Part shown: positions 2,603 through 59,003 of the stretch, piece after piece
Layout: each line of letters begins with the position of its first letter
Position numbering within the stretch: the stretch's first letter is position 1
NCBI RefSeq assembly: GCF_014697475.1
Contig: NZ_JACJRV010000009.1
Location: 62,001-126,000 of the forward strand
DNA length: 64,000 bases
Source: Nostoc sp. FACHB-152
Lineage (GTDB): Bacteria > Cyanobacteriota > Cyanobacteriia > Cyanobacteriales > Nostocaceae
Direction of reading: 5' to 3'
Notes under the pieces: generated by a model
What the model saw: the letters and a program-made list of their open reading frames with translations, nothing else
The model's database searches: none
What the model was told of the DNA's origin: nothing
Program-made: the position numbers and the translations under genes

Positions 2603-2654
2603 ATTTTCTTAGTCAATTGTCAAAAGTAGAAAGCAATTAAGTGTTTCACTATTG

Positions 2655-2679
2655 ACTGTTGACCATTGACCATTGACTA
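2655..2679. repeat. Tandem heptamer (STRR-type) array joined to the sigA stop codon
   Basis: Read along the sigA strand, the array starts with the stop codon itself: TAGTCAATGGTCAATGG, then TCAACAGTCAATAG. It is a tandem heptamer of the GTCAATG type. The same TAGTCAATGGTCA string forms the stop of the rhodanese gene at 28767. Confidence 0.7.
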
Positions 2680-3852
2680 CCGAATGTACTCTTTAAGGAC
2701 GCTGTTACGGTTGGGGTGACGTAATTTGCGGAGGGCTTTGGCTTCAATTTGGCGGATACGTTCGCGGGTAACGTTGAAGATTTGGCCGATTTCCTCAAGG
2801 GTTTTCATCCGGCCATCATCCAAGCCGTAACGGAGTCTGAGAACATCACGTTCACGGGGGCTGAGGCTATCAAGAACTTTTTCTAAATCTTCGCGGAGCA
2901 AATTTTTAGAAACTTGATCTTCTGGGGTTTCGCCATCAGACTCAATAAAATCGCCCAATCGAGAATCTTCTTCTTTACCGATGGGCGTTTCTAAAGAGAT
3001 GGGTAGCTGGGCGGATTTAGCAATAAACCGGAGTTTCTCGATGGTCATTTCCATACGAGTAGCGATTTCTTCCTCAGTGGGTTTGCGTCCCATTTCTTGA
3101 GAAAGTAGCTTGGTAGTTTTCTTAATCCGGGAGATAGTTTCGTAAAGGTGAACTGGTAGGCGGATAGTACGCGATTGATCGGCGATCGCACGTGTAATCG
3201 CCTGACGAATCCACCATGTAGCGTAGGTGGAGAATTTATAACCTTTTTCGTGGTCAAATTTCTCAGCCGCACGAATCAAACCAAGACTACCTTCTTGAAT
3301 TAAGTCTTGGAATGACAAGCCACGATTCATGTATTTCTTGGCAATCGAAACCACAAGCCGCAGGTTCGATTGCACCATTTTATCTTTAGCCCGGCGACCA
3401 ACGTGCAGACGATAACGGAATGCGGGCAAAGGTATTTGTACTGCTTCTGCCCATTCGCTATCACGAGGATCACGATCTAACTGTTCTGAAAGTTTTTCCC
3501 GGATTCTTTCTAATTCTAGTAAATCTGCGATTTTCCGCGCTAATTCAATTTCTTCGTCTGCTCGCAACAAGCGAATCCGACCGATTTCTTGCAAGTAAAG
3601 GCGGATCGAATCTTCTGTGTAGTGCTTTTTCTTGCTTTGTGTGCGACGACGCGATTTAGCGGCTTTTCCAGACTTTGCGTCGTCCTCATCAGACTGAGGC
3701 TCTAAAAATTCATCTTCCATGCCCTCATCAACGAGGAGCAAGTCATCCTCTTCTTCAATCAAGAGGTCTTCTAACTCCTCAAAATCAGGCTGATTTATTA
3801 TTTCTAGGTCAGGCTGAAAATTGCTTTCGAGTACGTTGTTAGCCTGGTTCAT
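2677..3852 (-). CDS. sigA: Group 1 (principal) RNA polymerase sigma factor SigA/RpoD
   Basis: A 391-aa housekeeping sigma factor directing RNA polymerase to -10/-35 promoters. An acidic N-terminus (residues 1-60) and a basic [13 protein letters not shown] stretch precede region 1.2 ([15 protein letters not shown]). Region 2 holds the core-binding and -10 recognition sequences ([30 protein letters not shown]). Region 3 follows, then region 4 with the -35-binding helix ([20 protein letters not shown]). Its length and its full regions 2-4 fit group 1 rather than group 2. The ATG has an upstream ATGAGGAA ribosome-binding site. The gene has an unusually long (about 1.7 kb) upstream spacer, room for several promoters. 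Confidence 0.95.
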
Positions 3853-5570: not shown

Positions 5571-7866
<2,296 letters not shown>

Positions 7867-7893
7867 ATGACTAATGACTATTGACCAATGACG
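7867..7893. repeat. Heptamer array running into the miaA start codon
   Basis: Three diverged units (ATGACTA, ATGACTATTGACC, ATGACGA) place three ATGA strings in a row. Only the last, at 7888, opens the miaA frame; the earlier ones meet stop codons within six codons. There is no Shine-Dalgarno in the array. Confidence 0.6.
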
Positions 7894-8793
7894 AAATTAA
7901 TTGTAATTTGTGGCGCAACAGCAACAGGTAAGTCGGGATTGGCTTTAAGTTTAGCTACGCGCTTAGGTTCGGTAATTCTCAGTGCAGATTCGCGTCAGGT
8001 ATACCGTGAGTTTAATATTGGCACAGCTAAACCAACTTTAGCGGAACAAAAGTTAGTACCGCATTATTTAATAGATATCTGCAATCCCACAGACACAATG
8101 ACGGTAGCAGACTATCAAGAGCAAGCACAAGCTTTGATTGCGTCTGTTCCGGTTGAGCCGATTTTATTAGTGGGTGGAACTGGTTTATATATACGTTCAA
8201 TTGTGCAGGGGATGAAAATTCCCCCAGTTGCGCCTCATTACCAATTGCGATCGCAGTTAGAATCTCTCGGTCAACATCAACTGTATAGGATGTTGCAACA
8301 AGTTGATCCTACTGCTGGACAAAAGATTCACCCTAACGATCCTGTGCGAACATTAAGAGCATTAGAAGTATTTTACATAACTGGAATTCCTATCTCAGAA
8401 CAACAAGGCGAAAACCCACCAAATTATCCAATTTTGCAGATAGGCCTAGATTGTGATGTTGATAAATTAGATGCGCGCATTCACAAGCGTACTGAACAAA
8501 TGATAGCTGATGGCTTAGTCGTTGAGGTGGAATATCTTTGCCAAAAATATGGTGCTGATTTATCTTTGTTAAACACCTTGGGCTATCAAGAAATTAGGCA
8601 ATATTTAGCTGGTGAGATTTCCTTAAATGAAGCAAAAGAATTAACAGTTTTACATACCCGGCAATTTGCCAAGCGGCAACGTACATGGTTTCGAGCATAT
8701 CCGCAAATTGAGTGGTTTAATGCAGATGATCCTGATTTAGTAGAAAAAGTTTGGCAACGTATTGATGAGTTTATTAATTGCCCTGGTCATTAG
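7888..8793 (+). CDS. miaA: tRNA dimethylallyltransferase (MiaA)
   Basis: A 301-aa enzyme that transfers a dimethylallyl group from DMAPP to N6 of A37 in tRNAs reading UNN codons. The P-loop GATATGKSGLA lies at residues 8-18. SADSRQVYREFNIGTAKP (base-flipping and catalytic region), VGGTGLYIRSIVQG and the tRNA-binding ALEVFYITGIPIS follow. HTRQFAKRQRTWFR near the end is a family signature. The start ATG is fixed by the P-loop position but lies inside a heptamer repeat and has no ribosome-binding site. It is divergent from gyrB, a neighbourhood recalled from other Nostoc-type genomes. Confidence 0.95.
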   Translation: MTKLIVICGATATGKSGLALSLATRLGSVILSADSRQVYREFNIGTAKPTLAEQKLVPHYLIDICNPTDTMTVADYQEQAQALIASVPVEPILLVGGTGLYIRSIVQGMKIPPVAPHYQLRSQLESLGQHQLYRMLQQVDPTAGQKIHPNDPVRTLRALEVFYITGIPISEQQGENPPNYPILQIGLDCDVDKLDARIHKRTEQMIADGLVVEVEYLCQKYGADLSLLNTLGYQEIRQYLAGEISLNEAKELTVLHTRQFAKRQRTWFRAYPQIEWFNADDPDLVEKVWQRIDEFINCPGH

Positions 8794-11455: not shown

Positions 11456-12370
11456 TTATAAAATGGTTGCGCCTTGGGTGTCTAAAGCAAGCGATCGCAC
11501 CTCGGCTTCAATACCTGCCACTTTCCAGGCTGTGATCATTGCTAACTCGACAGCTTGGGAATGTGCGACATCAGCTAAAGCCAACAGCGTCGGCCCTGCA
11601 CCACTAATCACCATGCCATAAGCACCAGCCGCCACAGCCGCCGCATTCACAGCATCGTAACCAGGAATCAAAGCTTTACGATAAGGCTGATGCAATTTAT
11701 CTTGTAAAGCTGCTTTTAGCCATTCTGAGTTACCAGTTTCTAAACCGCGTAACAATAAGCCTAAATGGGCAGTATTGAAAATTGCATCTGCACGACTAAA
11801 TTCGGTGGGTAAAACGCGGCGCGCTTCTGAAGTAGACAACTCAAAATTAGGAATTGCCACTACAGGGACAATATTTTCATGCCAAGGAACATCACAAATT
11901 TCCCAACCAGTTTCACTAGTAGCTGCCAGACGACATCCGCCGATTAATGCTGGAACTACATTATCAGGGTGTCCTTCCATTGCGATCGCTAACTCCATCA
12001 CCTGCACTTGAGACAGAGGTTCACTCGCCAGTTGATTCGCCGCCACCAAACCGCCGACAATTGCTGTCGCTGAACTACCCAAACCCCGCGCCAATGGTAC
12101 ACCCAAAATAATCTCAATTTTCACGGGCGGCGGTGTCTGATCTATATATTGATAAAACTTCAAAAACGCCTGATAAAGTAAATTACTCTCATCAGTTTGC
12201 ACTCGTTCGGCTTCTGCACCTGTGACATGAATAGTTAAACCGCCTTCGTCTAAGCGTGTAAACTTAAACTGGTTGCAAAGCGTCAAAGCTGCACCAATGC
12301 AATCAAAACCCGGCCCTAAATTAGCAGTTGTAGCGGGGACATTAACTGTGACAGAAGAAATAACAGACAT
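11456..12370 (-). CDS. thrB: Homoserine kinase
   Basis: A GHMP-family kinase that phosphorylates L-homoserine with ATP in threonine biosynthesis. Signatures are VTVNVPATTANLGPGFDC (N-terminal GHMP motif), the phosphate loop PLARGLGSSATAIVGGLVAA, and GAYGMVISGAGPTLLALA near the C-terminus. ATG 12370 (MSVISSVTV) gives 304 aa, the usual family length, and is preceded by AGGTGAG. An upstream in-frame ATG (12403) would add 11 residues and is less likely. The product feeds threonine synthase. thrS, 1.8 kb away on the same strand, uses the end product, but the genes between them are accessory. Confidence 0.94.
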   Translation of the reverse strand: MSVISSVTVNVPATTANLGPGFDCIGAALTLCNQFKFTRLDEGGLTIHVTGAEAERVQTDESNLLYQAFLKFYQYIDQTPPPVKIEIILGVPLARGLGSSATAIVGGLVAANQLASEPLSQVQVMELAIAMEGHPDNVVPALIGGCRLAATSETGWEICDVPWHENIVPVVAIPNFELSTSEARRVLPTEFSRADAIFNTAHLGLLLRGLETGNSEWLKAALQDKLHQPYRKALIPGYDAVNAAAVAAGAYGMVISGAGPTLLALADVAHSQAVELAMITAWKVAGIEAEVRSLALDTQGATIL

Positions 12371-12479
12371 CTGCAAATACTCACCTAACCGATCAACCAG
12401 CATCCCATGTAACTGGTTGATTAGTCATTATTTGAGGTACAAATGGTGTATAGATAGATAGCGTATAGATGTTGTATGG

Positions 12480-16741: not shown

Positions 16742-17000
16742 ATAGGTAATTATCACTTATTCGCACCAGAGATACATGACATCAATCGCATAGATACTAT
16801 AAAATCCTTAATAAATTTTTTATTAACAAACTAATGTATCGTATGCTACCGTTGACTGAATAAGGTTCACGATTTTTTTACATAAATAATATAGATGCAC
16901 TAAAAGTGCGTCAAACATCTACACTCACTGCAATTGGCATCATTAACGAAGCTTTTTTGTCTATAGTTTTTTAAACTTGCTGCCCCTGGAGGAAATCTTT
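16742..17000. other. Spacer between the DUF2605 and DUF2973 genes
   Basis: A 259-nt non-coding gap. Nothing was recognised apart from the DUF2973 ribosome-binding site GGAGGA at 16988-16993. Confidence 0.4.
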
Positions 17001-17315
17001 ATGTTGCACTTACTTTACATTCTCGCTTTTACGATTCTTGCTTGTATCGCGGTTGCCAATTTAATTCGTAACCTAATTATGTTTAGTTTTGACCGAGAGC
17101 GAAGCTATCCAGCTAGAACTTCAGGAATGGGGAATCAAGGTTATTATTCATCTAAAAAACAAGTACCCCATCCAGAATTATTAGATAGTGCTGGAAACAT
17201 AATTAAAGAACCGCTTTTAGTTATGCGTTCGATTAATGTTGAAGATGCTAGGCAACAGCTAGATGCGATTTACGAAGCTTCTCCAGGACAAAAGAGTGAA
17301 AATCAGGAAAAATAG
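17001..17315 (+). CDS. DUF2973-family membrane protein
   Basis: A 104-aa protein with one N-terminal transmembrane helix (MLHLLYILAFTILACIAVAN) and a soluble tail (DRERSYPAR, VPHPELLDSAGNIIKEPLL, RSINVEDARQQLDAIYEAS). It resembles the DUF2973 family of cyanobacteria; function unknown. The start is ATG 17001, fixed by a strong GGAGGA seven nt upstream. An in-frame TTG at 16977 lies before that site and is rejected. The TAG stop is directly followed by tandem repeats (GGGCTAGAGACTAGAGAC). Confidence 0.82.
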   Translation: MLHLLYILAFTILACIAVANLIRNLIMFSFDRERSYPARTSGMGNQGYYSSKKQVPHPELLDSAGNIIKEPLLVMRSINVEDARQQLDAIYEASPGQKSENQEK

Positions 17316-17395
17316 GGGCTAGAGACTAGAGACTGGAGACTAAATATTATTAATAAACCAACAGACAAGAATCAAATTTCACGTTCTAGCCCCTA
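17313..17395. repeat. Foldback repeat with heptamer array after DUF2973
   Basis: TAGGGGCTAGA (17313-17323, beginning with the stop codon) pairs with TCTAGCCCCTA (17385-17395). Between them are tandem GACTAGA/GACTGGA heptamers. The whole can fold into a stem-loop between convergent genes and may act as a terminator. Confidence 0.65.
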
Positions 17396-22596: not shown

Positions 22597-23016
22597 ATGG
22601 CAGAAACACTTTCTGGACAAACCCCACTGTTCGCCGGTAACACTGGCGGCTTGCTAAACAAAGCAACAGAGGAAGAAAAGTACGCTATCACTTGGACTAG
22701 CCCCAAGGAGCAAGTATTTGAATTACCTACAGGTGGCGCTGCTACTATGCGTCAAGGTCAAAACTTGCTTTACTTAGCTCGTAAAGAATATGGCATTTCG
22801 TTGGGCGGTCAACTCCGCAAGTTCAAAATCACAGATTACAAAATCTACCGGATTTTAGCTAGCGGAGAAACCACTTTTATTCACCCAGCTGATGGTGTCT
22901 TCCCTGAAAAAGTTAATCCAGGCCGTGAGAAAATGCGTTACTCAGACCGTAGGATTGGCGAAAACCCCAGCCCAGCAAAACTTAAGTTTAGTGGTACAGC
23001 TACCTACGATGCCTAG
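22597..23016 (+). CDS. psaD: Photosystem I subunit II, PsaD
   Basis: A 139-aa stromal-side subunit of photosystem I that docks ferredoxin and stabilises PsaC. The family sequence is evident: [15 protein letters not shown] at the start, [47 protein letters not shown] and the C-terminal [18 protein letters not shown] 22597 (MAETLSG) is chosen; the frame extends upstream to 22582, but PsaD proteins of this size start with the short MA-E-LSG peptide. The stop codon TAG is directly followed by repeat units. Confidence 0.97.
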
Positions 23017-23119
23017 GGACTAGAAGGGACAGAGGAAGTATGAAGTGTGAAGTGTGAAGTATGAAGTCTGAAACTTTATCCTTGAGATTTCATGCTTTTG
23101 CTTCCTAGTCCCTAACCCA
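23014..23119. repeat. Foldback heptamer array after psaD
   Basis: TAGGGACTAGAAG, starting at the psaD stop codon, can pair with CTTCCTAGTCCCTA at 23101-23114. The interior has GAAGTATGAAGTGTGAAGT tandem units. It separates psaD from trpE. Confidence 0.65.
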
Positions 23120-28394: not shown

Positions 28395-28766
28395 AAGGTA
28401 TGTATTACTGAAAGCAAATGTTAAGTAAGGTTTGAAAAAATTTTTTGTGCTAATGCAAAAAAAAGATTAATATTAATTAAGTAAGATGGCAAAATATGTA
28501 TTTACATTATAGTTACTTATAGCAACATTTTCAGATTGCTATTTTTGAACTATTAAATATTTCCCGCAAAAAAGCTTATTTACAATTTAAAATTTTTTAA
28601 TTATTAAGTATCTTCCCACAAATTACATAAATTAGTTGTATTGTTCGCTACTTATTTTTCTCACTATTTGAGATAGATGTCGTCAGGATAAATGCTGATT
28701 ATGTAAGAGTGTGGGAAGCAGGGAGCAGAGGATAATAACTTTTGACTATGGACTAATGACCATTGA
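28395..28766. other. hrcA upstream spacer
   Basis: Non-coding and A+T-rich. A small hairpin ATAGCAA ... TTGCTAT lies at 28519-28542. A GGGAAGCAGGGAGCAG unit lies at about 28710, and a heptamer array runs from 28742 into the rhodanese stop codon. Confidence 0.4.
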
Positions 28767-28769
28767 CTA
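28742..28769. repeat. Heptamer array joined to the rhodanese stop codon
   Basis: Read on the minus strand, the stop codon starts the array: TAGTCAATGGTCATTAG, then TCCATAGTCAAAAG. It is identical over 13 bases with the array at the sigA stop codon. Confidence 0.7.
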
Positions 28770-29126
28770 ATATTGCGGAATTGCTGGATCAACTAGTTGA
28801 GAATAGGCAGCAATACCACCTGCAATATTTTTGACATTGGTAAATCCTTGAGCAACCAACCACTGACACATCTGAGCAGAACGAACACCGTGGTGGCAGA
28901 GTACGAGGGTTTCCGCTTCCGGATTTAACATAGCAAATATTTGTTGGTTCCAGTCGGCGAATTCACTTAATGGTAAGTTAACAAACCCTGGAAGATTAGC
29001 GATCGCTAATTCTTGTGGCTCACGCACATCTACTAACTGAATACTTGCATCACTAGCAGCTAAACGTTCTGCTAATTCCTTAACACTAATCTGAGTCATG
29101 GTTTGACCAAAAGATTTATCTGTCAT
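28767..29126 (-). CDS. Single-domain rhodanese-like protein
   Basis: A 119-aa rhodanese-fold sulfurtransferase candidate. The active-site loop is CHHGVRS (catalytic Cys, then a six-residue loop). It is preceded by QLVDVREPQELAIANLPGFVNLPL and followed by WLVAQGFTNVKNIAGGIAAY. Start choice is uncertain: ATG 29126 (MTDKSFGQ) is used; ATG 29153 and ATG 29099 (MTQISVKEL) are alternatives. None has a strong ribosome-binding site. The substrate is unknown. Confidence 0.87.
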   Translation of the reverse strand: MTDKSFGQTMTQISVKELAERLAASDASIQLVDVREPQELAIANLPGFVNLPLSEFADWNQQIFAMLNPEAETLVLCHHGVRSAQMCQWLVAQGFTNVKNIAGGIAAYSQLVDPAIPQY

Positions 29127-29244
29127 GAAGTTTTTGTAAACGAGCTTATACATTTATGTTTACAGAAAATCTTTCCCTTAGCATGAGCATCCATCCTCAC
29201 TAATTCTGGTTAAATGGCTGTGAAACTAAGTATTTAATAGGTTT

Positions 29245-30879
29245 ATGGTGAATCGGCAAAACTCATTCTTTGGTTTTATTGTGGCGGGTGCGATCGCACT
29301 TTTATTAATTGCGATCGCCGGTTTTTGGTTTTCTACCAAAAGCCCAGTGAACCTAGTCGCCTCCACCTCCCAGCCTGGTGCAGCCATCTTCGTGTCGAAA
29401 CTCTCTCCTGTGATGGTATCGTTACTCACCAACCCCGACCGCTTGCAAGCCTTAGAACGGGAGGGGGAAATTTCTAAAATCAAAACTAGTTTATTGGCTA
29501 AGAGTGGGATAGATTATCAAAAAGATGTTCAGCCTTGGCTAGGTAACGAAATTACATTAGCCGTCACCACCACAGATATAGACCGCGATTCCAGTAACGG
29601 CAAACAACCAGGATATCTCATGGCTGTAGCTACCAATAAACAAGAAAAAAGCCGCGAGTTTATCGATTTGTTGTTTTCTAAGCGGGTATTAGCTGGTGGT
29701 AAATTAGATGTAGAAGAATATCAAGGTGTCAAAGTGCTTTATGACAGCCAACTCTCAGCCGCAGTGGTTGGCGATGGCTTTGTTTTATTTGCCAATAATC
29801 CCAGCGTTGTCAAGGATGCAATCAACAATGTCCAAGCACCTGACCTCAATTTAACTAGTTCTCCCCAATATCAAAAAGCCACCCAGCAGTTACCTCAAGT
29901 TTCCTTAGGGGTAGCTTTCTTAAATTTGCCGATCATTGCCCAATGGCAAGGTTTAGAACTACCAGAACCAATCTACGATAGTGAAATTATTTCTCTGGGG
30001 TTAAACTCTAAAGGTTTATTGGCAGAAACCAGTTTTTTAACTGCATTAGAACTTACGCCGCCATCATCACCATTAATCAAACCAGTAGGGGCGTTGAAAT
30101 ATATCCCAGCATCGGCGGGGTTGGCAATTTCCGGCGCAGATTTAAGCAATTTGGGTGATAGCGATTTAGCCAAATTATGGACACAAATTAAAACAGCCAT
30201 CTCCGGTTCAGGAACAGATGTGATTTCCAGATTGGTAGCACCATTAACCCAAGTGCAGAAAACCTGGGGGATTAACTTTGCACAAGATATTTTTAGCTGG
30301 GTGAAAGGAGAATATGCGATCGCACTTTTACCTCGTGCAGAACAAACTCTTCCTGATTGGGTTTTTGTGGTGGAGAGAACAGAGGGTGTACCCGAAGCTA
30401 TTGCGAATTTAGATGCGATCGCATCTAAGAGTGGACTTAGCAGCAGTAACCTGAATTTAGATCAACAAAAAATCTCGGCTTGGACACAGTTAACAGCTAA
30501 ACAAACCCAAGCCAAAGACCGTCCCTCGTTCGCCATTGAAGCTAAAGCCCAAGGGATACATACAACTTTAGACAATTACGAAGTTTTCACTTCCGACTTG
30601 GCAACAATGAACGAAGTTCTCATAAGTAAAGAAAAATCCTTGATTAACGATCGCAATTTTCAAAACAGTGTAGCTGCGATTCCTCAACCTAACCAGGGAT
30701 ATTTATATCTTGATTGGGCAAAAAGTCAAGGGATTTTAGAACGACAACTACCTGTTTTGAAACTGATAGAAGTATTGGGTAAACCATTTTTTAACAACTT
30801 GCGATCGCTTACCGTCAGTAGTTACGCTAGCGAAATAAATGCACTGAAAGGCGGTGTCTTCTTACAGCTTCAAGAATAG
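29245..30879 (+). CDS. DUF3352 domain-containing protein
   Basis: A 544-aa protein with an N-terminal transmembrane anchor (residues 10-29, FGFIVAGAIALLLIAIAGFW) and a large extracytoplasmic part. The features ASTSQPGAAIFVSKLSPVMVSLL, DYQKDVQPWLGNEITLAV and EEYQGVKVLYD are those of the cyanobacterial DUF3352 family, function unknown. It is divergent from the rhodanese gene with 118 nt between them. A long foldback heptamer array follows. Confidence 0.83.
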   Translation: MVNRQNSFFGFIVAGAIALLLIAIAGFWFSTKSPVNLVASTSQPGAAIFVSKLSPVMVSLLTNPDRLQALEREGEISKIKTSLLAKSGIDYQKDVQPWLGNEITLAVTTTDIDRDSSNGKQPGYLMAVATNKQEKSREFIDLLFSKRVLAGGKLDVEEYQGVKVLYDSQLSAAVVGDGFVLFANNPSVVKDAINNVQAPDLNLTSSPQYQKATQQLPQVSLGVAFLNLPIIAQWQGLELPEPIYDSEIISLGLNSKGLLAETSFLTALELTPPSSPLIKPVGALKYIPASAGLAISGADLSNLGDSDLAKLWTQIKTAISGSGTDVISRLVAPLTQVQKTWGINFAQDIFSWVKGEYAIALLPRAEQTLPDWVFVVERTEGVPEAIANLDAIASKSGLSSSNLNLDQQKISAWTQLTAKQTQAKDRPSFAIEAKAQGIHTTLDNYEVFTSDLATMNEVLISKEKSLINDRNFQNSVAAIPQPNQGYLYLDWAKSQGILERQLPVLKLIEVLGKPFFNNLRSLTVSSYASEINALKGGVFLQLQE

Positions 30880-30884
30880 TTAAA

Positions 30885-31001
30885 AAGTATGAAGTATGAA
30901 GTATGAAATTAAGCAAGAATAAGGCAATAAAAGTTGTACTATGACAACTCCAAAATCATGAATGATTTAATTTCAGACTTCACACTTTATACTTCATACT
31001 T
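30885..31001. repeat. Foldback tandem heptamer array
   Basis: Left arm 30885-30912 is AAGTATG repeated three times plus AAATTAA. Right arm 30967-31001 is the inverted equivalent (TTAATTTC ... ATACTTCATACTT). An inner hairpin AGTTGT/ACAACT lies in the loop. It starts 5 bp after the DUF3352 stop codon and can form a stem of about 28 bp. Confidence 0.7.
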
Positions 31002-39005: not shown

Positions 39006-39082
39006 TTTGGTCAAAAGTCAATAGTCAAGAGTAGTTGACTTTAACCATTAACCAAGGACAAATGACCATTGACTATTGACTA
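39006..39082. repeat. Foldback heptamer array ending in the ABC permease stop codon
   Basis: AAAGTCAATAGTCAAGAGT on the left can pair with TGACCATTGACTATTGACTA on the right. Read on the minus strand, the TAG stop codon of the permease opens the array (TAGTCAATAGTCAATGGTCA). Confidence 0.7.
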
Positions 39083-39976
39083 TTTCCGAATCCTATTTTC
39101 TCCCCGTAAACGAGGATTGACAAATTCATTTAACCCTTCTCCAAGTAGGGATAACCCTACTACCATTAGTGTCATCGCTAAACCAGGAAATAAAGTAGTC
39201 CACCAAACTCCTGTAGGTAGTGCTTCGAGAGCTTGTTTTAAATCATGCCCCCATTCTGGCACTTCTTCTGGTAGCCCTAAGCCTAAAAAGCCTAAACCGC
39301 CCAATACTAAGATTGCATCGGCGGCGTTGAGGGTAAATAATACAGGTACACTTTGAATAACGTTGAAAAATAGATAGCGAGACAGAACAGTCCAGGTAGA
39401 AGCACCCATTGCTTGCGCTGCTTCGATGAATACTTCTGTTTTTACACTCACGGTATGATTACGAACAACCCGGTAATATTGAGGGACGTAAGCAATACTA
39501 ATAGCGATCGCAGCATTTAATATTCCTCTACCAACAACAAATGCCAGCGTTACAGAAAGTAATAATCCCGGTAAGGTGTAAATGCTATCCATGAGAAACA
39601 GCAATACCTTATCTAAGTTACCGCCAAGATAGCCACTTACCATTCCCAAAGGTACGCCGATAATCATACTTAGCGCGGTGGCTAAAATGACTACTTGTAA
39701 AGCGGCTTGCGCGCCAAACAACGTACGAGAAAATACATCATGACCCAAGCGACTAGTACCAAACCAATGTTTAGCGGATGGTGCTTCTTGAATAGGGTTA
39801 GAAAGAAAATCTTTGGGGTTTTGTAGCCATCCCCAAGCCTGCAATACCGGGGTAAAAAATGCCAGAAAAATAAAAAACAGGGTGATGGCTAACCCGATGA
39901 TCATTAATTTCTGCGAAAGGTTGGAATTTTTAGCAAAACGTAAAAAAGTTGGCAGTTGCCGTTTAGTAATGGTCAT
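39080..39976 (-). CDS. ABC transporter permease, DppC/OppC family
   Basis: A 298-aa inner-membrane permease of a peptide/nickel-type importer. The N-terminal helix and the loop GTSRLGHDVFSRTLFGAQAAL are typical of DppC-type subunits. The EAA loop that contacts the ATPase is EAAQAMGASTWTVLSRYLF. About six transmembrane segments are seen. The partner permease, ATPases and binding protein are not adjacent, as is common in cyanobacteria. The substrate cannot be deduced. Confidence 0.9.
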   Translation of the reverse strand: MTITKRQLPTFLRFAKNSNLSQKLMIIGLAITLFFIFLAFFTPVLQAWGWLQNPKDFLSNPIQEAPSAKHWFGTSRLGHDVFSRTLFGAQAALQVVILATALSMIIGVPLGMVSGYLGGNLDKVLLFLMDSIYTLPGLLLSVTLAFVVGRGILNAAIAISIAYVPQYYRVVRNHTVSVKTEVFIEAAQAMGASTWTVLSRYLFFNVIQSVPVLFTLNAADAILVLGGLGFLGLGLPEEVPEWGHDLKQALEALPTGVWWTTLFPGLAMTLMVVGLSLLGEGLNEFVNPRLRGENRIRK

Positions 39977-40021
39977 GTGCGATCGCCTGCATAGAGCAAG
40001 ATACGCTGACCATTGTACATA

Positions 40022-40094
40022 GGTGAGTAGAGAGTGGGGAGTAGGGAGTAGGAATTAGAAATATTCCTCCCTATTCCCCATTCCCTACTCCCTA
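40022..40094. repeat. Foldback heptamer array after the NTRC gene
   Basis: GGGGAGTAGGGAGTAGGAAT pairs with ATTCCTCCCTATTCCCCATT and CCCTACTCCC. Read on the minus strand, the NTRC stop codon TAG is the first base triplet of the GGAGTAG-type array. Confidence 0.7.
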
Positions 40095-41462
40095 AAGATT
40101 GCTTTCAATCAACTGGCGATACTCGCTCTTTTGCTTCACACCTTTAACTTCCTTCAGTAGGTCTTTGTCTTTGAAAAATTGCACTGTTGGTGTACCTGTC
40201 ACGCCAGCGTTTTCCGCAATCTCGCGGTCTTTATCGATGTCAATTTCGACAAAGTGAATTTTGCCGTCGAATTCATCCACGACTTTATTTAGTATCGGCT
40301 TCAAAGTATGACATGGGCCACAACCGGGCGCGACATATTTGACAATGAGCAGGCGATCGCTTTCGTGGAATAATTTACGTAAAGCGTAACCACCTTCATG
40401 GCGCGTTGCATTTAAATCAAACCCTGCTTCCTGTTCAGCTTCAGTTTTTTGCTGTACTGGCTCATGTTCTAACTCATTATTAATTGTTGGCTGTTGATGG
40501 AACTCTTGAATTAAACCATTAGAAGATAACCAACGTTCTGCCAACAACGCCGCCATACAGCCAGTACCCGCAGCTGTGATTGCTTGGCGATATTCATGGT
40601 CTTGCACGTCACCAGCAGCATAAACGCCTTCTACACTAGTTTCGACAGAACCATCTTTGGTGACGATGTAACCCACCTCATCTAGTTCTAGTTGTCCCTG
40701 AAATAAAGAAGTATTAGGTCTGTGACCAATGGCGTAGAATAATCCTTTAGCATGGATTTCGCTTTCTTCACCCGTTTTGTTATTGCGGACTTTCACCCCA
40801 TCCATGTGACCATTACCGAACACATCCACAACTTCTGTATTCCAATGCACTTGGATTTTGGGGTTACTCAAAACTCGGTCTTGCATAGCTTTAGAAGCCC
40901 GCATTTTATCAGATCGCACCAACAGATTTACCTTGGAACCGTACTTAGTCAGGTAAATCGACTCTTCCGCCGCCGAGTCACCAGCACCAATTACCGCCAA
41001 CTCTGCACCGTGGAAAATTGGTGTTGCACCATCGCAAATCGCACAAGCAGAAATCCCGCGACTCCAAAATAGATGTTCACTATCTAAACCTAAACGCTTT
41101 GCCGTCGCACCAGTGGCAATAATCAAACTGTGGGCTTTAACTTCTCTTTCTTCTGAGCGCACAGTAAACGGACGCTGGCTTAAATCAACAGATATCACAT
41201 CCTCAGTATATAACTCAGCCCCCCAACGCTCTGCCTGCGCCTTCATACGATCCATTAGTTCAGGCCCAGTAATACCTTGAGGGAAGCCGGGAAAGTTTTC
41301 CACCTCAGTGGTTGTCATGAGTTGTCCACCCGGTAAACCCCCTGCTTGGAATCCCTCAAACACAACAGGTTTTAAGTTAGCTCGTGCTGCATAGATGGCA
41401 GCAGTATAACCTGCTGGCCCGGAACCGATAATCACTACGTTTTCTACAGTTGGGTTAGACAT
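40092..41462 (-). CDS. ntrC: NADPH-thioredoxin reductase C (NTRC), TrxR-Trx fusion
   Basis: A 456-aa fusion of an NADPH-dependent thioredoxin reductase with its own thioredoxin, which in cyanobacteria and plastids reduces 2-Cys peroxiredoxin. The FAD motif is [16 protein letters not shown] (residues 13-28). The redox-active pair is CAIC (Cys140, Cys143). The NADPH motif is [10 protein letters not shown], and FAD motif 2 is [10 protein letters not shown]. After a linker the thioredoxin domain has [10 protein letters not shown] (Cys381, Cys384). Length and order are as in known NTRC. The symbol is shared with the unrelated nitrogen regulator NtrC. Confidence 0.94.
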
Positions 41463-41633
41463 ATGTTTATAACGAACTCATAACGACTACGTTTAATATA
41501 ACATAACCATCGTGTGAGAGCAAAGGCACATAAATGGGAATACTCAAACTTAAGCCAATTCTTTTTGGTCTTGCTACTGCTAAAGGCTATGTGGACAGAC
41601 TGCGAAGAATGCAATCACAGGAGCAATTTACCT

Positions 41634-42968
41634 ATGACTAACCCAACATCAGACTTAAAAGAAAAAATTCGTCAGCAGTTTGAAGCAACTCCATATCCTA
41701 ATAATTCCCTAGAGGAATCCCCTAAAAACAAGCTGAACTTACTATACGTTTATAATTTTGTCACACCTTTTTATTTAAGAAACCAAGAACTTATAAATAC
41801 TAAAGATAAACTTATTTTAGATGCGGGTTGTGGTTCTGGTTATACATCATTAGCTTTAGCAGAGGCAAACCCCGATGCCAAGATAATTGGTGTTGATTTA
41901 TCAGCAGAATCTGTAAAATTAGCCCGTCAGCGATTGCAATATCATGGCTTTGATAATGCAGAGTTTTATACACTTTCCATCGAAGATTTATCACAGTTAG
42001 GAATGCAATTTGATTACATCAACTGTGATGAAACCCTTTATTTGTTGCCAGAACCAGTCTTGGGTTTGCAAGCGATGAAATCTGTTTTACAACCGCATGG
42101 CATTATTCATACTAATCTACATAGTTATCGCCAGAGATTTTTTTATTACCAAGCTCAAGAACTATTTCAACTAATGGGATTCTTGGACGATGCTCCCCAA
42201 CAATTTGAAGCTGAATTAGTTAGAGAAACGATGCGAGCTTTGAGAGATGATGTTGTACTCAAGCAAAAAGTCTGGGATGACACATTTGAACAATCACCTA
42301 GCCTAGCTTTAATTAATCATTTACTCCAAGGAGACAAAGGCTACACAGTTAAGCAAATGTTTACCATGCTGCAAGCTGCTGACCTCGAATTTATCAGTAT
42401 GGTGGAATGGCGACACTGGGAATTAATAGATTTATTCAAAAATCGAGATGATTTGCCAGCATTTTTAGCCATGAGTCTACCCGAACTGTCTATTGAAGAG
42501 CAGTTACATATATTTGAACTGTTACATCCTGCTCATCGTTTACTAGATTTTTGGTGTGGTCATCCAAACCAAGCAAACTTACCTGAAAGAGTTGCTGAGT
42601 GGACATTGAGAGACTGGCAAAGTACTAAAGTACATCTCCACCCCCAATTAAGAACAGAACAAATTAAACAAGATTTAATTAACTGCATTGCTCAAGGCCG
42701 TTTATGGTCTGTTGGTAACTATATAAATCTTCCGTTGAAGGGGCCTGTAGAGTTAGACCCTACCTTAGCCGCTTGCTTGCTACCTCTATGGGAGGGAGAA
42801 CAACCATTCGACTCTCTAGTACAACGATGGCTAGTGATTAAGCCAATAAATATTGTCACTTTAAAACCGACCAGTTACGAACAAGCTTGCTATCAAATAC
42901 AAAGTCTTTTGAGCAAACTGGAAGTCTTTCTGTACGTTCTCTTAGAACGCGGTGTCTACAATTCATAA
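41634..42968 (+). CDS. SAM-dependent methyltransferase (class I) with C-terminal extension
   Basis: 444 aa from ATG 41634 (MTNPTSDLKEK), which has AGGAG 10 nt upstream. The frame continues 40 codons further upstream, but that part is unlike a protein start. The N-terminus IRQQFEATPYPN resembles tetratricopeptide/GT-associated methyltransferases. The SAM motif is LILDAGCGSGYTSLALAEANP, with IIGVDLS as the acidic loop and FDYINCDETLYLL as motif II. The last 200 residues (HPAHRLLDFWCGHPNQANLP, YEQACYQIQSLLSKLEVFLY) are an unassigned extension. The acceptor is unknown; the pilin and glycosyltransferase genes follow. Confidence 0.83.
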   Translation: MTNPTSDLKEKIRQQFEATPYPNNSLEESPKNKLNLLYVYNFVTPFYLRNQELINTKDKLILDAGCGSGYTSLALAEANPDAKIIGVDLSAESVKLARQRLQYHGFDNAEFYTLSIEDLSQLGMQFDYINCDETLYLLPEPVLGLQAMKSVLQPHGIIHTNLHSYRQRFFYYQAQELFQLMGFLDDAPQQFEAELVRETMRALRDDVVLKQKVWDDTFEQSPSLALINHLLQGDKGYTVKQMFTMLQAADLEFISMVEWRHWELIDLFKNRDDLPAFLAMSLPELSIEEQLHIFELLHPAHRLLDFWCGHPNQANLPERVAEWTLRDWQSTKVHLHPQLRTEQIKQDLINCIAQGRLWSVGNYINLPLKGPVELDPTLAACLLPLWEGEQPFDSLVQRWLVIKPINIVTLKPTSYEQACYQIQSLLSKLEVFLYVLLERGVYNS

Positions 42969-43079
42969 CCACATTTCCAGAATTTTTCAGTGGGGATGAT
43001 ATGAAACCGAAAACAAGTGGGTAAATTAAGCCCAGAGGTTAAGAAAAATACATTTGACCCCCCTAAGGAGAATCTATAA

Positions 43080-43637
43080 ATGAAGCCCGCCATCAAACCA
43101 GAACTTCAAGCTAAATTCTTACAACACCTCAACAATCGTAAAAATAAAGCCGAAGAAGGTTTTACATTAATTGAATTGCTCGTAGTAGTAATTATTATCG
43201 GTGTTCTTGCTGCGATCGCTCTACCTTCTTTGCTCGGTCAAGTTAACAAAGCCAAGCAGTCAGAAGCTAAAAACAACATTGGTGCAATCAACCGCGCTCA
43301 ACAAGCTTACTTTTTGGAATACCAAGCATTCAATACTGACTTAACTCAATTGGGTATTGGTATCAAAACCCAAACCGACAACTATGGCTACACCAGCGTA
43401 ATTAACGGTGCTACTAGTGGTGCCAACATTGCTGTGATCTCTCATAATGCATTGTCCCTAAAAGCTGCACTCAAAAGCTATGTAGGCGTTGTAGGTACTG
43501 CACAAGGTGCTGGTTCAACTAGTGAAGCTTTGACAGTAGCATTTGCTTGTGAGTCTAATGACCCAGGTGTAGTAACTACTCCCATTACTGGTACAGGACT
43601 TGGTTGCCCAGCAAACTACAAATCTCTAGCAAGATAA
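43080..43637 (+). CDS. Type IV pilin-like protein (prepilin, G/H family)
   Basis: A 185-aa prepilin. A 27-residue leader ends in the PilD site EEG-FTLIELLVVVIIIGVLA, with Glu5 of the mature protein present. After the N-terminal helix, QAKSEAKNN-type residues (KQSEAKNNIGAINRAQQAYF) match the cyanobacterial 'pilin-like G/H' family. A Cys pair (ACESNDP ... GCPANY) forms the likely C-terminal disulfide loop. An AAGGAG ribosome-binding site precedes the ATG. A hairpin terminator follows (43679). It is probably a minor or major pilin for motility or DNA uptake; which one cannot be told. Confidence 0.9.
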   Translation: MKPAIKPELQAKFLQHLNNRKNKAEEGFTLIELLVVVIIIGVLAAIALPSLLGQVNKAKQSEAKNNIGAINRAQQAYFLEYQAFNTDLTQLGIGIKTQTDNYGYTSVINGATSGANIAVISHNALSLKAALKSYVGVVGTAQGAGSTSEALTVAFACESNDPGVVTTPITGTGLGCPANYKSLAR

Positions 43638-43678
43638 GCAACAAATAAGAAAAGGTTGTTGGATAGGTACTTTTTTAG

Positions 43679-43710
43679 AAGTGGGTAGTCTTCAATTAAG
43701 CTACTCACTT
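43679..43710 (+). terminator. Hairpin between pilin and O-GlcNAc transferase genes
   Basis: AAGTGGGTAG - 12-nt loop - CTACTCACTT (one G-T pair), then TATTTATT. It lies 42 nt after the pilin stop codon and before the transferase start, so it may reduce rather than prevent readthrough. Confidence 0.7.
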
Positions 43711-43734
43711 TATTTATTAGGAGCTTTTCAAATT

Positions 43735-45987
43735 ATGTTAATAGAAGCAACCAAGACTTCAGCAACTTGGCAAGAAACAGCCTATAACTATCTGGTTCAA
43801 GGTAACTATAATTTGGCAGCAAACTGCTACGAACAAGCAATTACCTTTGAACCAGATGTGAAGTCAAATTACTTATATCTGGGACTAGTATTGTTGTTAC
43901 AAGGGCAACAGGCAGAAGCTGAGGCAACTTGGCTGATGGTGATGATGGAGGATGATGAAAGCGAAATCAATCAGTGTACACAGGAATTAGGAGCGATTTT
44001 ATCTCAGGAAGCCACAAGACAAGAGGCATTAAAAGAAGCTGAAATATCCCTAACAATTAGGCAGCAGATTAAAGAAATTTGCCCTACAGACATTAAAAAT
44101 TTATTACATTTGGTACTGCTAGAAGTTGAGCAGAAAAATTATACTGGTGATGAATTAACAGATTTAGGCATAATTACACTACTCCAGTCTCAAGAAGAAT
44201 TAGCAGCAGTGAATTGGGAACTGTTAAATTCTACCTTGCAAAATGTTTTAGAGACTGTTCCATTACATTCTTCATCTTTAGAACTGGCGACTGCTATTAT
44301 TCCGTATGTTAATAGCCCAGGAAGAGTTAAGGATTTTCTAAAAAATTTAATTCCATACAGTGTGAGCATTGCCTATTCTTTAAAACAACCCGAAATTGCA
44401 GGTAATTTTATAGATTTAGGTTTAAAACTAGAGCCGAAGAATCAAGAAATGCTCTTTCATCGGACTAGTTTTTATTACATGGAGTCTAAATATGCACAAG
44501 GACTAGAAACTGCTAGATTAGTTTATTCTATAGCTCAACAGCTACCCGATATAATTTTTGCTCACTATTTAATTTTAAAAGGTCTGATTAGTTCCAGTGG
44601 TACGAATTGGCAAGCTGCCGATCAAACATGGGCAGAGCATGAATTATTGCTAGAAGACCTAGTAAAACAGCATCCAGAAGATTTACCAATTCTGCAAGTA
44701 TCACGGGTGTTTAATACTAATTACTTCACTCCATATTTGCAAGATGAGCCGCAAAAATATCGCAGATTACGCGCTCAATTAGCTGAGATTTGCAAAAAAA
44801 ATATTAATACTTATTATCATGAAGCAGTAGAGCGATATCAGCAAGGTCATATACAGCGTAAAAAACTAATAACACCAACTAAAAAGTTAAAAATAGGCTA
44901 CTTGTCTCATTGTTTTAACAGCCATTCTGTGGGTTGGTTAGCGAGATGGCTAATTAAGCACCATAACCGCGATCGCTTTGAAATAAATGGTTATTGTATT
45001 TATACTGATCCAGTATTTGATCCTTTACATGAATGGTATCTAAATCACTTTGACAACACCCATAAAAGTGAAAATGTTCAGGCTCTAGCCAACAAAATTT
45101 ATGACGATGAAATTGATATCTTGATTGATTTAGATAGTATTACTCTAGACTTAAGTTGTATATTGGTATCTCTCAAGGCTGCACCAATTCAAGCTACTTG
45201 GTTGGGCTGGGATGCTTCTGGTATTCCGGCTGTTGATTACTTTATTGCTGATCCTTATGTTTTGCCAAACGCGGCTGAGGAATATTACAGCGAAAAAATC
45301 TGGCGTTTGCCACAAACATACATAGCAGTAGATGGTTTTGAGGTAGGTGTTCCTACATTACGCCGTGATGATTTGAATATTCCTGCTGATGCAGTGGTTT
45401 ATTTTAGCGGACAACGAGGTTTTAAGCGACATCCCGATACTGCACGCCTGCAAATAAAAATCATTAAAGAAGTACCCAATAGCTACTTTTTAATTAAAGG
45501 TGACGCTGACGAAGAATCGATGAACGGCTTCTTTTATCAATTAGCAGAAGAAGAAGGCGTAGCAATTGAAAGATTACGATTTCTACCAAACGCACCATCA
45601 GAAGCAACTCACCGGGCAAATTTAGGCATTGTCGATATAGTGCTAGATACATATCCATATAATGGTGCGACAACAACTCTAGAAACTTTATGGATGGGAA
45701 TTCCTTTAGTGACGCGAGTTGGTGAGCAATTCGCAGCGCGTAATAGCTACACCATGATGGTTAATGCTGGCATTACAGAAGGTATAGCCTGGACAGATGC
45801 AGAGTATGTAGAGTGGGGTATGCGTTTAGGTAAGGATGAAAGTTTACGTCAGCAAGTAGTCAAAAAGCTGAAACTATCTCGACAAACTGCGCCACTGTGG
45901 AATGGTAAGCAGTTTGCTTGCGAGATGGAAAAGGCTTACGAGCAAATGTGGCAGAAGTATATTGATGCCAACGAAATTAGTTCTTAG
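43735..45987 (+). CDS. SPINDLY-type O-linked GlcNAc transferase (GT41) with TPR-like N-terminus
   Basis: 750 aa from ATG 43735 (MLIEATKTS), preceded by AGGAG; the frame upstream runs through the terminator hairpin and is rejected. Residues 10-330 are TPR-like (AYNYLVQGNYNLAANCYEQA, KSNYLYLGLVLLLQGQQAEA). The catalytic GT41 part has KIGYLSHCFNSHSVGWLARW, LGWDASGIPAVDYFIADP, VVYFSGQRGFKRH and DTYPYNGATTTLETLWMGIP (sugar-nucleotide binding). It adds a sugar, usually GlcNAc, to Ser/Thr of proteins in the cytosol. Adjacent pilin and methyltransferase genes suggest a protein-modification role on surface proteins. Confidence 0.9.
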   Translation: MLIEATKTSATWQETAYNYLVQGNYNLAANCYEQAITFEPDVKSNYLYLGLVLLLQGQQAEAEATWLMVMMEDDESEINQCTQELGAILSQEATRQEALKEAEISLTIRQQIKEICPTDIKNLLHLVLLEVEQKNYTGDELTDLGIITLLQSQEELAAVNWELLNSTLQNVLETVPLHSSSLELATAIIPYVNSPGRVKDFLKNLIPYSVSIAYSLKQPEIAGNFIDLGLKLEPKNQEMLFHRTSFYYMESKYAQGLETARLVYSIAQQLPDIIFAHYLILKGLISSSGTNWQAADQTWAEHELLLEDLVKQHPEDLPILQVSRVFNTNYFTPYLQDEPQKYRRLRAQLAEICKKNINTYYHEAVERYQQGHIQRKKLITPTKKLKIGYLSHCFNSHSVGWLARWLIKHHNRDRFEINGYCIYTDPVFDPLHEWYLNHFDNTHKSENVQALANKIYDDEIDILIDLDSITLDLSCILVSLKAAPIQATWLGWDASGIPAVDYFIADPYVLPNAAEEYYSEKIWRLPQTYIAVDGFEVGVPTLRRDDLNIPADAVVYFSGQRGFKRHPDTARLQIKIIKEVPNSYFLIKGDADEESMNGFFYQLAEEEGVAIERLRFLPNAPSEATHRANLGIVDIVLDTYPYNGATTTLETLWMGIPLVTRVGEQFAARNSYTMMVNAGITEGIAWTDAEYVEWGMRLGKDESLRQQVVKKLKLSRQTAPLWNGKQFACEMEKAYEQMWQKYIDANEISS

Positions 45988-47376: not shown

Positions 47377-47676
47377 ATGCAAATCACATTGGAACGCACG
47401 GGAGGGTTTGCTGGGATAACTCGAAAAAAAACCTTTGATACTGCCATTCTCCCAGTAAACGAAGCTAACGATGTTCTGCGACTAGCCACCGCCGCAGATT
47501 TATTTAATTTGCCAGATCAAATTCCGTCGCCTCATCCTCAGAGCGATCGCTTTCAGTATAAATTAACCGTAGAAGACAACGGTAAACAACATACAATCAT
47601 TGTCAGTGAAGCAGGCTTGCCAGGAACTTTAAGACCACTAATTGAATGGTTAAATAACGCAGCAGTGCAAAGATAA
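47377..47676 (+). CDS. Emfourin-type protealysin inhibitor
   Basis: 99 aa from ATG 47377 (MQITLERTGGFAGIT). The family features are the N-terminal ITLERTGGFAGI, AADLFNLPDQIP, FQYKLTVEDNGKQHTIIVSE and the end LRPLIEWLN. The frame extends 31 codons upstream to 47284, but that peptide is unrelated. Emfourins bind and inhibit the adjacent M4 protease. The stop codon is again directly followed by repeat units (GAGACTAGAGATGAGAGGCT). Confidence 0.85.
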   Translation: MQITLERTGGFAGITRKKTFDTAILPVNEANDVLRLATAADLFNLPDQIPSPHPQSDRFQYKLTVEDNGKQHTIIVSEAGLPGTLRPLIEWLNNAAVQR

Positions 47677-47724
47677 GAGACTAGAGATGAGAGGCTAGGG
47701 GCTAGTATTTTTTACTCGGCAATT

Positions 47725-57478: not shown

Positions 57479-57576
57479 AGGCAATAGGCAATAGGCAAAT
57501 AAGGGCTGTAAACCATTAACCAAATATTCGGTAAAAGACTTTTAATCCTGTAACCTGTAACCTATCACCTGTCCTA
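57479..57576. repeat. Heptamer array between SagB-type and dihydroorotase-like genes
   Basis: AATAGGCAATAGGCAATAGG at the left, and CCTGTAACCTGTAACC with TATCACCTGTCCTA at the right. Read on the minus strand, the array starts at the TAG stop codon of the dihydroorotase-like gene. Confidence 0.65.
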
Positions 57577-58890
57577 ACACCAAGTTTGCACAACACGACC
57601 TTGTAATTCTTTGCCGAACCAAGGTGTATTAGTAGAAAGTGTGTGCAGATTTTTTCTGTCAACTTGCCAAATTTTTTCGGGATCAAATAAAGTTAATTCT
57701 GCTTTGTGTTGCGGTTTAATGGGATTCAATTTCTGCCCTAAAAACTCTGCGGGATTTCTACTTAATGCTTGCCATAATTCTAGGGCTGTAAATTCTCCAG
57801 TGGCTACTAGATTTTGCCACAGTAAAGGCAAGGCTAGTTCATAACCAATTGCGCCGCTTGGTGCTTCTGCAAAAGCTTGGACTTTTTCTTCATAAGTATA
57901 GGGTGCATGGTCGATCGCGATCGCATCAATTACGCCTGTACGAACTCCTGCACGTAAAGCTTTTAAATCGCTAGAAGTCCCTAAAGGTGGATCTAAATGC
58001 AAACTGGTATCGTAACTTTTAACGGCTGTAGTATCTAATAATAAATGCATCCAAGTTGTACTGGCGGTGATAGGTAAACCAGCCGCCTTAGCTGAGGCTA
58101 TCAATTCTACACTCCGGGCTGTAGAAACACGCATGATGTGAACTCGCGGATTACCAGTAGCCGCAACTAATTCTAACAAAGCGGCGATCGCAGTTGTTTC
58201 CGCACTGGCGGGGATGGGTGGTAAACCAAAACGCAACGCGTCTACTCCTTCACGCATGACACCATTGGATGTAAGCTGGCGATCGCAAGGCCAAAAAGCT
58301 ACAGGTTTACCCAAGGGCTGCACATATTCCAATACGCGCCGCACTAAACCCAAATTATCTAAAGGATGGCTATCAGTAAAGCCAACAACTCCCGCAGCTG
58401 CTAAATCTGCTAACTCCGTCATTTGCTTTCCGGCCACATCCGAGGTAATTGCACCCCAGATATTAAGCAGGGGATCTGGGGAGCGTGGGAGCAGGGGAGA
58501 AGAAGTATCTAAACTCCCCTCTGCTCCTCTGCTCCTCCGCTCCTCTGCCCAAATTTTCTGCAACTGTGCCACCAGTGCAGGGTTATCAATAGACGGAGAT
58601 GTATCAGGTAAAATACCAATTCTAGTAAAGCCGCCAGCCGCCGCAGCTTGTAATAGAGAAGAGAAAGTTTCTCGTTCTTCAAATCCTGGTTCGCCAGAGT
58701 GACTATATAAATCTATTAATCCAGTTCCTAGAACTAATCCTTGACAATTTCTAACTTGAATATCGGCAGTTATATCAGAAATTTGTGCAGCTACAGCTTG
58801 AATATTACCATCAGCAATCAGGACATCTGCTATTTGGTCAGTTCCAGAAACTGCATCAATTATCCGTACTTGTTGTAAAAGTTCAGTCAT
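57574..58890 (-). CDS. Dihydroorotase homologue, probably non-catalytic (PyrX-like)
   Basis: 438 aa from ATG 58890 (MTELLQQVRI); another ATG lies three codons upstream. The overall fold is clearly that of dihydroorotase: DVLIADGNIQAVA, GLVLGTGLIDL, FSSLLQAAAAGGFTRIG, ASTTWMHLLLD and IDAIAIDHAPY. But the metal-binding HxH with its Arg (DxHVHFREPG) is DLYSHSGEPG: the first His and the Arg are lost. The later histidine site reads VHIMRVSTARS. Such homologues act as structural partners of aspartate transcarbamoylase. Residues 118-145 come from an inserted repeat (58466-58551). Confidence 0.85.
   Translation of the reverse strand: MTELLQQVRIIDAVSGTDQIADVLIADGNIQAVAAQISDITADIQVRNCQGLVLGTGLIDLYSHSGEPGFEERETFSSLLQAAAAGGFTRIGILPDTSPSIDNPALVAQLQKIWAEERRSRGAEGSLDTSSPLLPRSPDPLLNIWGAITSDVAGKQMTELADLAAAGVVGFTDSHPLDNLGLVRRVLEYVQPLGKPVAFWPCDRQLTSNGVMREGVDALRFGLPPIPASAETTAIAALLELVAATGNPRVHIMRVSTARSVELIASAKAAGLPITASTTWMHLLLDTTAVKSYDTSLHLDPPLGTSSDLKALRAGVRTGVIDAIAIDHAPYTYEEKVQAFAEAPSGAIGYELALPLLWQNLVATGEFTALELWQALSRNPAEFLGQKLNPIKPQHKAELTLFDPEKIWQVDRKNLHTLSTNTPWFGKELQGRVVQTWC
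58466..58551. repeat. Intragenic GGGAGCAGGGGAG-type inverted repeat inside the dihydroorotase homologue
   Basis: GGGAGCAGGGGAGAAG and CTCCCCTCTGCTCCTCTGCT face each other within the gene. The insert keeps the frame and encodes a low-complexity loop (EERRSRGAEGSLDTSSPLLP). The same unit occurs at 22332-22362. Confidence 0.65.
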
Positions 58891-59003
58891 AAAAATCATG
58901 AGTTAGGAGTGATGAGTTAGGAGTTAAGAGTTATGAGCTATTTAGGCTTTAATATTTACGCCTGGCTTAGTTCCTCATTTCTTCCTCTTCACTCCTTACT
59001 GTT
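58891..59003. repeat. Heptamer array between histidine phosphatase and dihydroorotase-like genes
   Basis: GAGTTAGGAGTGATGAGTTA followed by GGAGTTAAGAGTTATGAG, and on the right TTCACTCCTTACTG. The array reaches almost to the start codon of the dihydroorotase-like gene. Confidence 0.6.

Follow-up and report, generated by a model that had tools for sequence, protein, structure and literature searches.

Why should genes that have nothing else in common end in a stop codon that is also the beginning of a tandem repeat? The question is raised by 64,000 nucleotides of the draft genome of Nostoc sp. FACHB-152 (contig NZ_JACJRV010000009.1, positions 62,001 to 126,000; hereafter the window), in which an earlier note had listed at least seven unrelated genes whose TAG is directly continued by seven-base units, and one with TAA. 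As a whole this observation is partly confirmed: it is real, it was overstated, and part of it had already been explained in print. In their placement, orientation and, often, pairing the arrays behave as 3'-end modules, beyond what is explained by a neutral sieve, in which arrays grow in any spacer, coding sequence halts them and a stop-bearing heptamer ends the frame, with no function involved. The reading that we lean towards, from sequence comparison, is that heptamer arrays of the STRR type act as hairpin modules of the 3' untranslated region (3'-UTR), anchored at gene ends. That a stop lies within an array follows largely from frame-closing and selection on protein ends. The element that may be new is hairpin-preserving family switching, whereas placement and frame-closing have been published before (Rehm 2015; MacGregor 2015).

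Two genes of the window carry such a hairpin, with the following arms:

39041 to 39084, minus strand: first arm, TAGTCAA family; it covers the TAG (39080-39082) that ends the ABC permease gene 39080-39976
39010 to 39032, minus strand: second arm, inverted, completing the 3' hairpin of the ABC permease (Tandem Repeats Finder, TRF; arm score 13.0)
40067 to 40094, minus strand: first arm, TAGGGAG family; it begins at the TAG (40092-40094) that ends the NTRC gene 40092-41462
40020 to 40052, minus strand: second arm, inverted, completing the 3' hairpin of NTRC (TRF; arm score 16.5)

Both had been pointed out as fold-backs, at 39006-39082 and 40022-40094, and both are real; a third one proposed at 17313-17395 was seen by eye only.

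Placement and orientation of the arrays

The window was set within a sample of 1.956 Mb of the 8.62-Mb draft (23%, in 26 pieces), in which 1447 genes were called with our own Markov caller, whose stops are firm and whose starts are not. An array score cut-off of 10 was applied to heptamer counts, the random-placement test, polarity, long spacers, inverted-arm shuffles and gene ends of other Nostocales, and a cut-off of 8 to stops inside arrays, orthologue pairs, co-occurrence, the NTRC and ABC permease loci and arm swaps. The spacer arrays are heptameric, with 311 of period seven against one in shuffled spacers. At the same threshold, 34 arrays of period eight form a weaker second class in the spacers. 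The sample holds 358 arrays, 277 of them wholly in spacers, 65 across a gene border and 16 in coding sequence.

When arrays were placed at random in the same spacers, with none put over coding sequence, 51 array edges were expected within 0-12 bases of the first stop base and 82 were observed. A further 16 arrays overlap the coding side of the stop by 1-14 bases, where this null places none. Edges 21-40 bases from a stop were fewer than expected (33 vs 55), and those 0-12 bases from called starts numbered 36 against 32 expected. The earlier note had set beforehand, as the outcome that would speak against it, that arrays lie no closer to stops than random positions do; in this 23% of the genome, they lie closer. 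The excess at stops is also found in spacers of at least 200 bases, where 23 arrays start near a stop (-3 to +12) and 43 far from it (13-100), the corresponding numbers for called starts being 6 and 39 (odds ratio 3.5, p=0.015). Among 791 gene ends at 80 loci of named Nostocales, a set from which 73 NTRC ends were left out and duplicate ends removed, the density of array starts per base is 13 at offset 0, 4.7 over offsets 1-6 and 1.6-1.8 over offsets 13-40. A neutral sieve does not account for this drop in array-start density past 12 bases, which is present even in long spacers.

The orientation of the arrays tells against the sieve as well. The G-richer strand points outward from the gene rather than inward in arrays over the stop (22 vs 6), at start offsets 1-3 (18 vs 1), at 4-9 (34 vs 7) and at 10-20 (20 vs 10). 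Arrays at offsets of at least 4 begin behind the stop and, therefore, a stop-codon sieve cannot produce their bias, which amounts to 54 vs 17 for offsets 4-20 together. Further out, where second arms lie, the polarity reverses (27 vs 50 at 21-60 bases, 16 vs 47 at 61-120). In addition, an inverted arm of the same family often follows: such a partner scored above all 30 shuffles for 34 of the 54 arrays at stops with room for an arm, and for 8 of the 26 arrays at starts. The placement figure of 82 against 51 is not needed for the long-spacer contrast, the polarity or the arm test, which hold independently of it.

Stop codons inside arrays

In the sample, 34 gene ends lie inside arrays, with 24 TAG, 5 TAA and 5 TGA, while 273 of the 1101 array-free ends have TAG. 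The heptamer found at the stop is the unit of the array family, for instance TAGTCAA (seven ends), TAGTCAT (four), TAGGCAA (three) and TGAAGTA or TAATTCG (one each). Stop-bearing families include TAGTCAA, TAGGGAG, TAGAGAC and TAGGCAA with TAG, TGAAGTA with TGA and TAATTCG with TAA. Because seven is not a multiple of three, a tandem stop-bearing unit shuts all three frames within 21 bases. An array that reaches a gene end, or is laid over it, would then supply the stop, and selection on the protein would retain arrays whose in-frame stop matches the old site, so that the stop becomes the 'first unit'.

Frame-closing is also what a neutral sieve relies on, and it is in print for another heptamer: TAACTGA repeats of Beggiatoaceae overlap the upstream stops of 13 open reading frames (ORFs), and a repeat that carries stops in every frame is said there to lie necessarily at an ORF end (MacGregor 2015, PMC4679880). 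The regularity that had seemed too great for chance is partly accounted for in this way. In the portion of that report on which the comparison rests, the TAACTGA repeats lie mostly just upstream of putative starts and have one unit sequence, unlike the many families found here. The sieve is likewise favoured by the outward-strand stop, which is commoner in stop-covering arrays (23/28) than in others (83/140, p=0.03). The stop had been taken for the first unit of its array, which it is in 19 of the 34 array-covered ends; it falls in the second unit in 10 and in the third or later in five, and these 15 are as the sieve would have it. The first-unit share exceeds the one third each that is expected under frame-closing alone (p=0.006), a point against the sieve, though selection against longer proteins would do likewise and is enough to explain it.

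The key control speaks against a special part played by the stop triplet itself. Across the 316 TAG-ending genes followed by a gap of at least 40 bases, TAG occurs again at +7 in 36, at +14 in 28, at +21 in 23 and at +28 in 21, while at the control offsets 5, 6, 8 and 9 it recurs 2, 5, 7 and 4 times. TAA ends (35/670) and TGA ends (6/173) show the +7 recurrence only weakly. Upstream of the stop TAG, recurrence at -7 is found in 20 of the 316, and some arrays therefore start within the gene. Any TAG up to 60 bases past the stop recurs at +7 in 191 of 1521 cases (12.6%), with 4.8% at 60-150 bases and 2.3% beyond 150. Since nearby TAGs recur as often as stop TAGs, the stop TAG is not special among its neighbours, again in keeping with the sieve; the special thing is the neighbourhood of the stop and not the stop triplet. 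The proposal that arrays seed at, or are selected at, gene ends is partly supported, by the placement excess at stops, and the role given to the triplet is lost.

Hairpin arms and family switching at fixed stops

Five of ten genomes of the same genus (G003, G005, G006, G007 and G009) were compared with this one (G000), using five 20-kb query pieces and the loci among the matches listed (at most 30 per search). For window positions 40001-43999, outside these pieces, NTRC of the relatives was taken from a separate search. With at least 60% identity and a match ending no more than 12 residues short of the C-terminus, 303 of 370 gene-genome pairs were kept (74 genes, five genomes), and in 247 of them the C-terminus lies at the same codon. 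Shifts are no commoner with arrays (10 of 74 pairs with an array in G000, 43 of 212 without one in either genome), and the end of NTRC is fixed in all 80 named loci. The suggestion that array growth has replaced original C-termini is thus ruled out as a rule. The exceptions are array-encoded extensions in relatives, at the window gene starting at 11456 (G005, G007, G009) and at a gene at C158:35406 (G003, G006, G007, G009). In the former (11456-12403), the protein of these three strains ends five codons later, with residues from a TAGAGGC-type array.

Arrays recur at the same gene ends across the relatives, with 90 co-occurring pairs against 26 (standard deviation 4.4) in permutations. The rotation distance between units, in the 71 array pairs with the same site and the same C-terminus, is 0-1 in 42, 2 in seven and 3-4 in 22 (six sites), whereas between different sites it is 0-1 in 11% and at least 3 in 77%. 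By these distances, the recurrence is due in part to descent and in part not. Among pairs whose protein ends coincide in position, the two strains use different stop codons in 62 of 135 with an array in one strain, in 24 of 71 with an array in both and in 118 of 512 with an array in neither.

What happens at a fixed protein end can be followed at NTRC, where G000 has TAG+GGAGTAGGG, its sister G006 and likewise G007 have TAA and then AAGTNTG units, and G005 and G009 keep an outer TAGGGAGTA with AAGGCAA units inside. The 80 named loci have 37 TAG, 29 TAA and 14 TGA stops, with a detectable array at 27. The best-matching among them are Nostoc spp., 95-98% identical, and this kinship, along with the psaD gene of the window, suggests that the host is heterocyst-forming. 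The ABC permease end is unchanged in 53 of 62 named orthologues, the other nine being shorter by two residues; its stop is part of TAGTCA in 36 of the 62, TCA stands behind the stop in 45, and 28 have a detectable array. Nested hairpins were seen at the ABC permease ends of G005 and G009 and at two further loci (L105 and L106), with outer arms of one heptamer family and inner arms of another.

The spacer between the convergent genes at C2:22858-25276 holds a hairpin that is of the CAGGTTA type in three genomes (G000, G003 and G009) and of the AAGTATG type in the other three (G005, G006 and G007). The sisters G005 and G009, which share 95% identity over 8160 bases concatenated from 34 genes, have different hairpins at C2:22858-23987, the last 150 coding bases being 90-100% identical in the three windows compared. 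Inheritance of the families along the species tree is rejected on this case, and the pattern would fit, without proving, short-tract exchange. In switched pairs, pairing between a strain's own two arms was obtained in 48 of 68 tests, and pairing with the other strain's arm in one of 68. This set comprises 34 pairs at eight sites with any C-terminus, where two of the sites flank a single spacer and pairs that share a site are not independent; with equal C-termini there are 22 pairs at six sites. In same-family pairs, own and swapped arms score alike (11.4 and 12.0). In the switched cases, then, the hairpin turns over as a unit and both arms change together, which a neutral sieve does not predict. 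No description of hairpin-preserving switching of heptamer families at a fixed stop was found in searches of the open-licence PMC literature.

A 3' structure is a plausible role for the arrays, given the inverted arms and their joint switching. The further proposal that they are termination units fares less well. T runs of at least six within 150 bases are not enriched (present at 17% of the 71 array ends and 24% of the 150 ends that lack arrays), nor are runs of at least five (39% and 45%), both sought anywhere in the 150 bases and not just behind the hairpin. Canonical Rho-independent terminators, made of a hairpin and a T run, are rejected on this ground, and the hairpins do not resemble ordinary intrinsic terminators. 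They may instead be kept for protecting or defining mRNA 3' ends, or may simply lie where hairpins are tolerated, and families would be exchanged through short-tract recombination or through new arrays nested inside old ones.

Several observations weigh against such modules being anchored at stops. The lack of T runs is among them, and folding at array ends exceeds that at array-free ends by a moderate amount only (mean z -2.15 vs -1.28). A second arm at a fixed score was found for 27 of 116 array ends, against 6% in cross-gene pairings, and a strict 8-mer test of 44 neighbouring array pairs gave nine inverted and two direct; this test was judged too stringent, and alignment scores were used besides. 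Many arrays are accordingly single-armed. Stops are also not the sole anchor: polarity is outward near starts too (56 vs 12 within 15 bases), as a sieve would allow, and the +7 periodicity of TAG is raised close to starts too, at 8.6% within 60 bases of them and 3.7% further on. Divergent spacers, which contain no stops, still hold arrays (0.42 per kb vs 0.93-0.94), and a pile-up at starts might be blurred, the starts being those of our own gene caller. Lastly, joint switching of the arms is also expected from replacement by a selfish element.

A neutral sieve is the strongest of the alternatives and deserves real weight, although it is not the account that we consider probable. Insertion at stops of a mobile palindromic element (REP-like or miniature) that carries the TAG appears improbable: GTAG-tagged REPs have ends that often give flanking ORFs their TAG stops (PMC3733652), sister strains have different families at one site, the ABC permease array is nested (outer TAGTCA kept, inner array different) and, at the 11456 gene, three different arrays stand, in other strains, between the stop and the next gene's leader, a place taken in G000 by a short spacer, but no fixed length or end sequence was seen, G precedes TAG in only 2 of 24 array-covered TAG ends, and no insertion with a target duplication was found at five gene ends aligned with and without arrays. 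Clean insertion at an empty site was rejected: four of these five show a replaced or unalignable spacer and the fifth, at the 11456 gene, an apparent addition between the stop and the next gene's leader. Among TAG ends with an array start at most nine bases away, G precedes TAG in 8 of 57. As described in the part of the source used here, the REPs are palindromes of 20-40 bp with a GTAG tag, while the arrays of this genome are tandem heptamers without a tag.

Known repeat systems and other arrays of the window

Heptamer arrays of cyanobacteria have been noted for a long time, and to our knowledge their function is not settled. STRR heptamers between genes of Nostoc and Anabaena are capable of forming hairpins, one of them close to a gene's 3' end, and roles in transcript stability, translational coupling, pausing or termination have been proposed for them (PMC2670836). 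The arrays described here are likewise 7-bp tandem repeats dispersed in spacers, and can be counted among them. In the sections of that account that were available, single loci are treated and no link to stop codons is made; here, the anchoring at stops extends over 1231 gene ends and is accompanied by family switching.

The closest placement is that of the GGGAATC and GGGGA(C/T)T heptamers of Xanthomonas and Nostoc PCC 7120, whose role is given as unknown (Rehm 2015, PMC4692102). Downstream of genes they lie mostly within 50 bp of the stop and on the coding strand, including all of those that overlap a stop; upstream they lie near starts and on the non-coding strand, and their length and sequence differ between two Xanthomonas species. 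As far as the portion of the report used here goes, their placement is the same as that of the present arrays, which differ in having many families, anchoring at base resolution, a stop codon that follows the family and arms that switch together. GGG runs, the mark of G-quadruplex heptamers, occur here in some families only (TAGGGAG and others), and the units TAGTCAA, AAGTATG, CAGTTAT and TAATTCG are without them. A Nostoc transcript map (PMC10287535), described as built on predicted terminators, is of no help for these arrays.

Besides the two hairpins, the window contains these cases:

2651 to 2679, minus strand: TAGTCAA-type array from the stop TAG of the sigA-like gene 2677-3852
17313 to 17342, plus strand: TAGAGAC-type array from the stop TAG of the DUF2973 gene 16977-17315
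28738 to 28769, minus strand: TAGTCAA-type array from the TAG that ends the rhodanese gene 28767-29153; the register is fair and the score under the scan threshold
47671 to 47698, plus strand: emfourin stop TAA (47674-47676), then a loose heptamer array
30877 to 30907, plus strand: gene 29245-30879, whose stop TAG has an AAGTATG array starting 8 bases from its first base
23014 to 23072, plus strand: psaD stop TAG, then a GAAGTAT array (23035-23072); weak case, stop out of register
57547 to 57576, minus strand: stop TAG of the amidohydrolase (dihydroorotase-like) gene, with which the GTTACAG array that follows is not in register; weak case

The gene labels given earlier are supported by Pfam (sigma-70 regions, DUF2973, PsaD, Rhodanese, BPD_transp_1, Pyr_redox_2 with Thioredoxin, Amidohydro_1 and Emfourin). 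When heptamers are counted from the first stop base and the matches out of seven are taken for the first two steps, the register is clear for sigA (6 and 7), DUF2973 (5 and 7), the ABC permease (7 and 5) and NTRC (6 and 6), and fair for rhodanese (5 and 4). Five of the seven TAG genes are thus continued by heptamers, while the amidohydrolase (3 and 5) and psaD (3 and 3) are not in register, the clear array behind psaD beginning only at 23035, 19 bases past the stop; the array said to run on from the TAA of emfourin is also no better than fair (5 and 4). The array scan, at a score of at least 8, flags six of the 42 called genes of the window, including 29245-30879, which was not on the earlier list, and does not flag rhodanese or psaD. 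Over the whole sample, 130 of 1231 gene ends (about one in ten) are flagged as being at an array or a few bases from one, and the window is ordinary for its genome.

Starts may be touched as well: an AATGACT array (7866-7892) reaches into the start of gene 7888-8793, whose ATG lies inside the array, and a CTCCTAA-type array is similarly found before the start of gene 57574-58899.

The comparison shows, besides, that repeats can alter which stop codon is used while protein ends stay where they are, and that the TAG closing a gene may itself belong to a repeat. A bolder extension, which we put forward tentatively and hold to be rather doubtful, is that the arrays are interchangeable 3'-UTR cassettes, in which unrelated hairpins swap whole at the same stop, often with their own stop triplet, as a non-canonical and T-run-free system of mRNA 3' ends. 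If so, position and structure would be conserved over the genus and sequence would not. Arrays that are anchored at stops, outward, paired and unit-switching make a role in setting or protecting mRNA 3' ends concretely testable.
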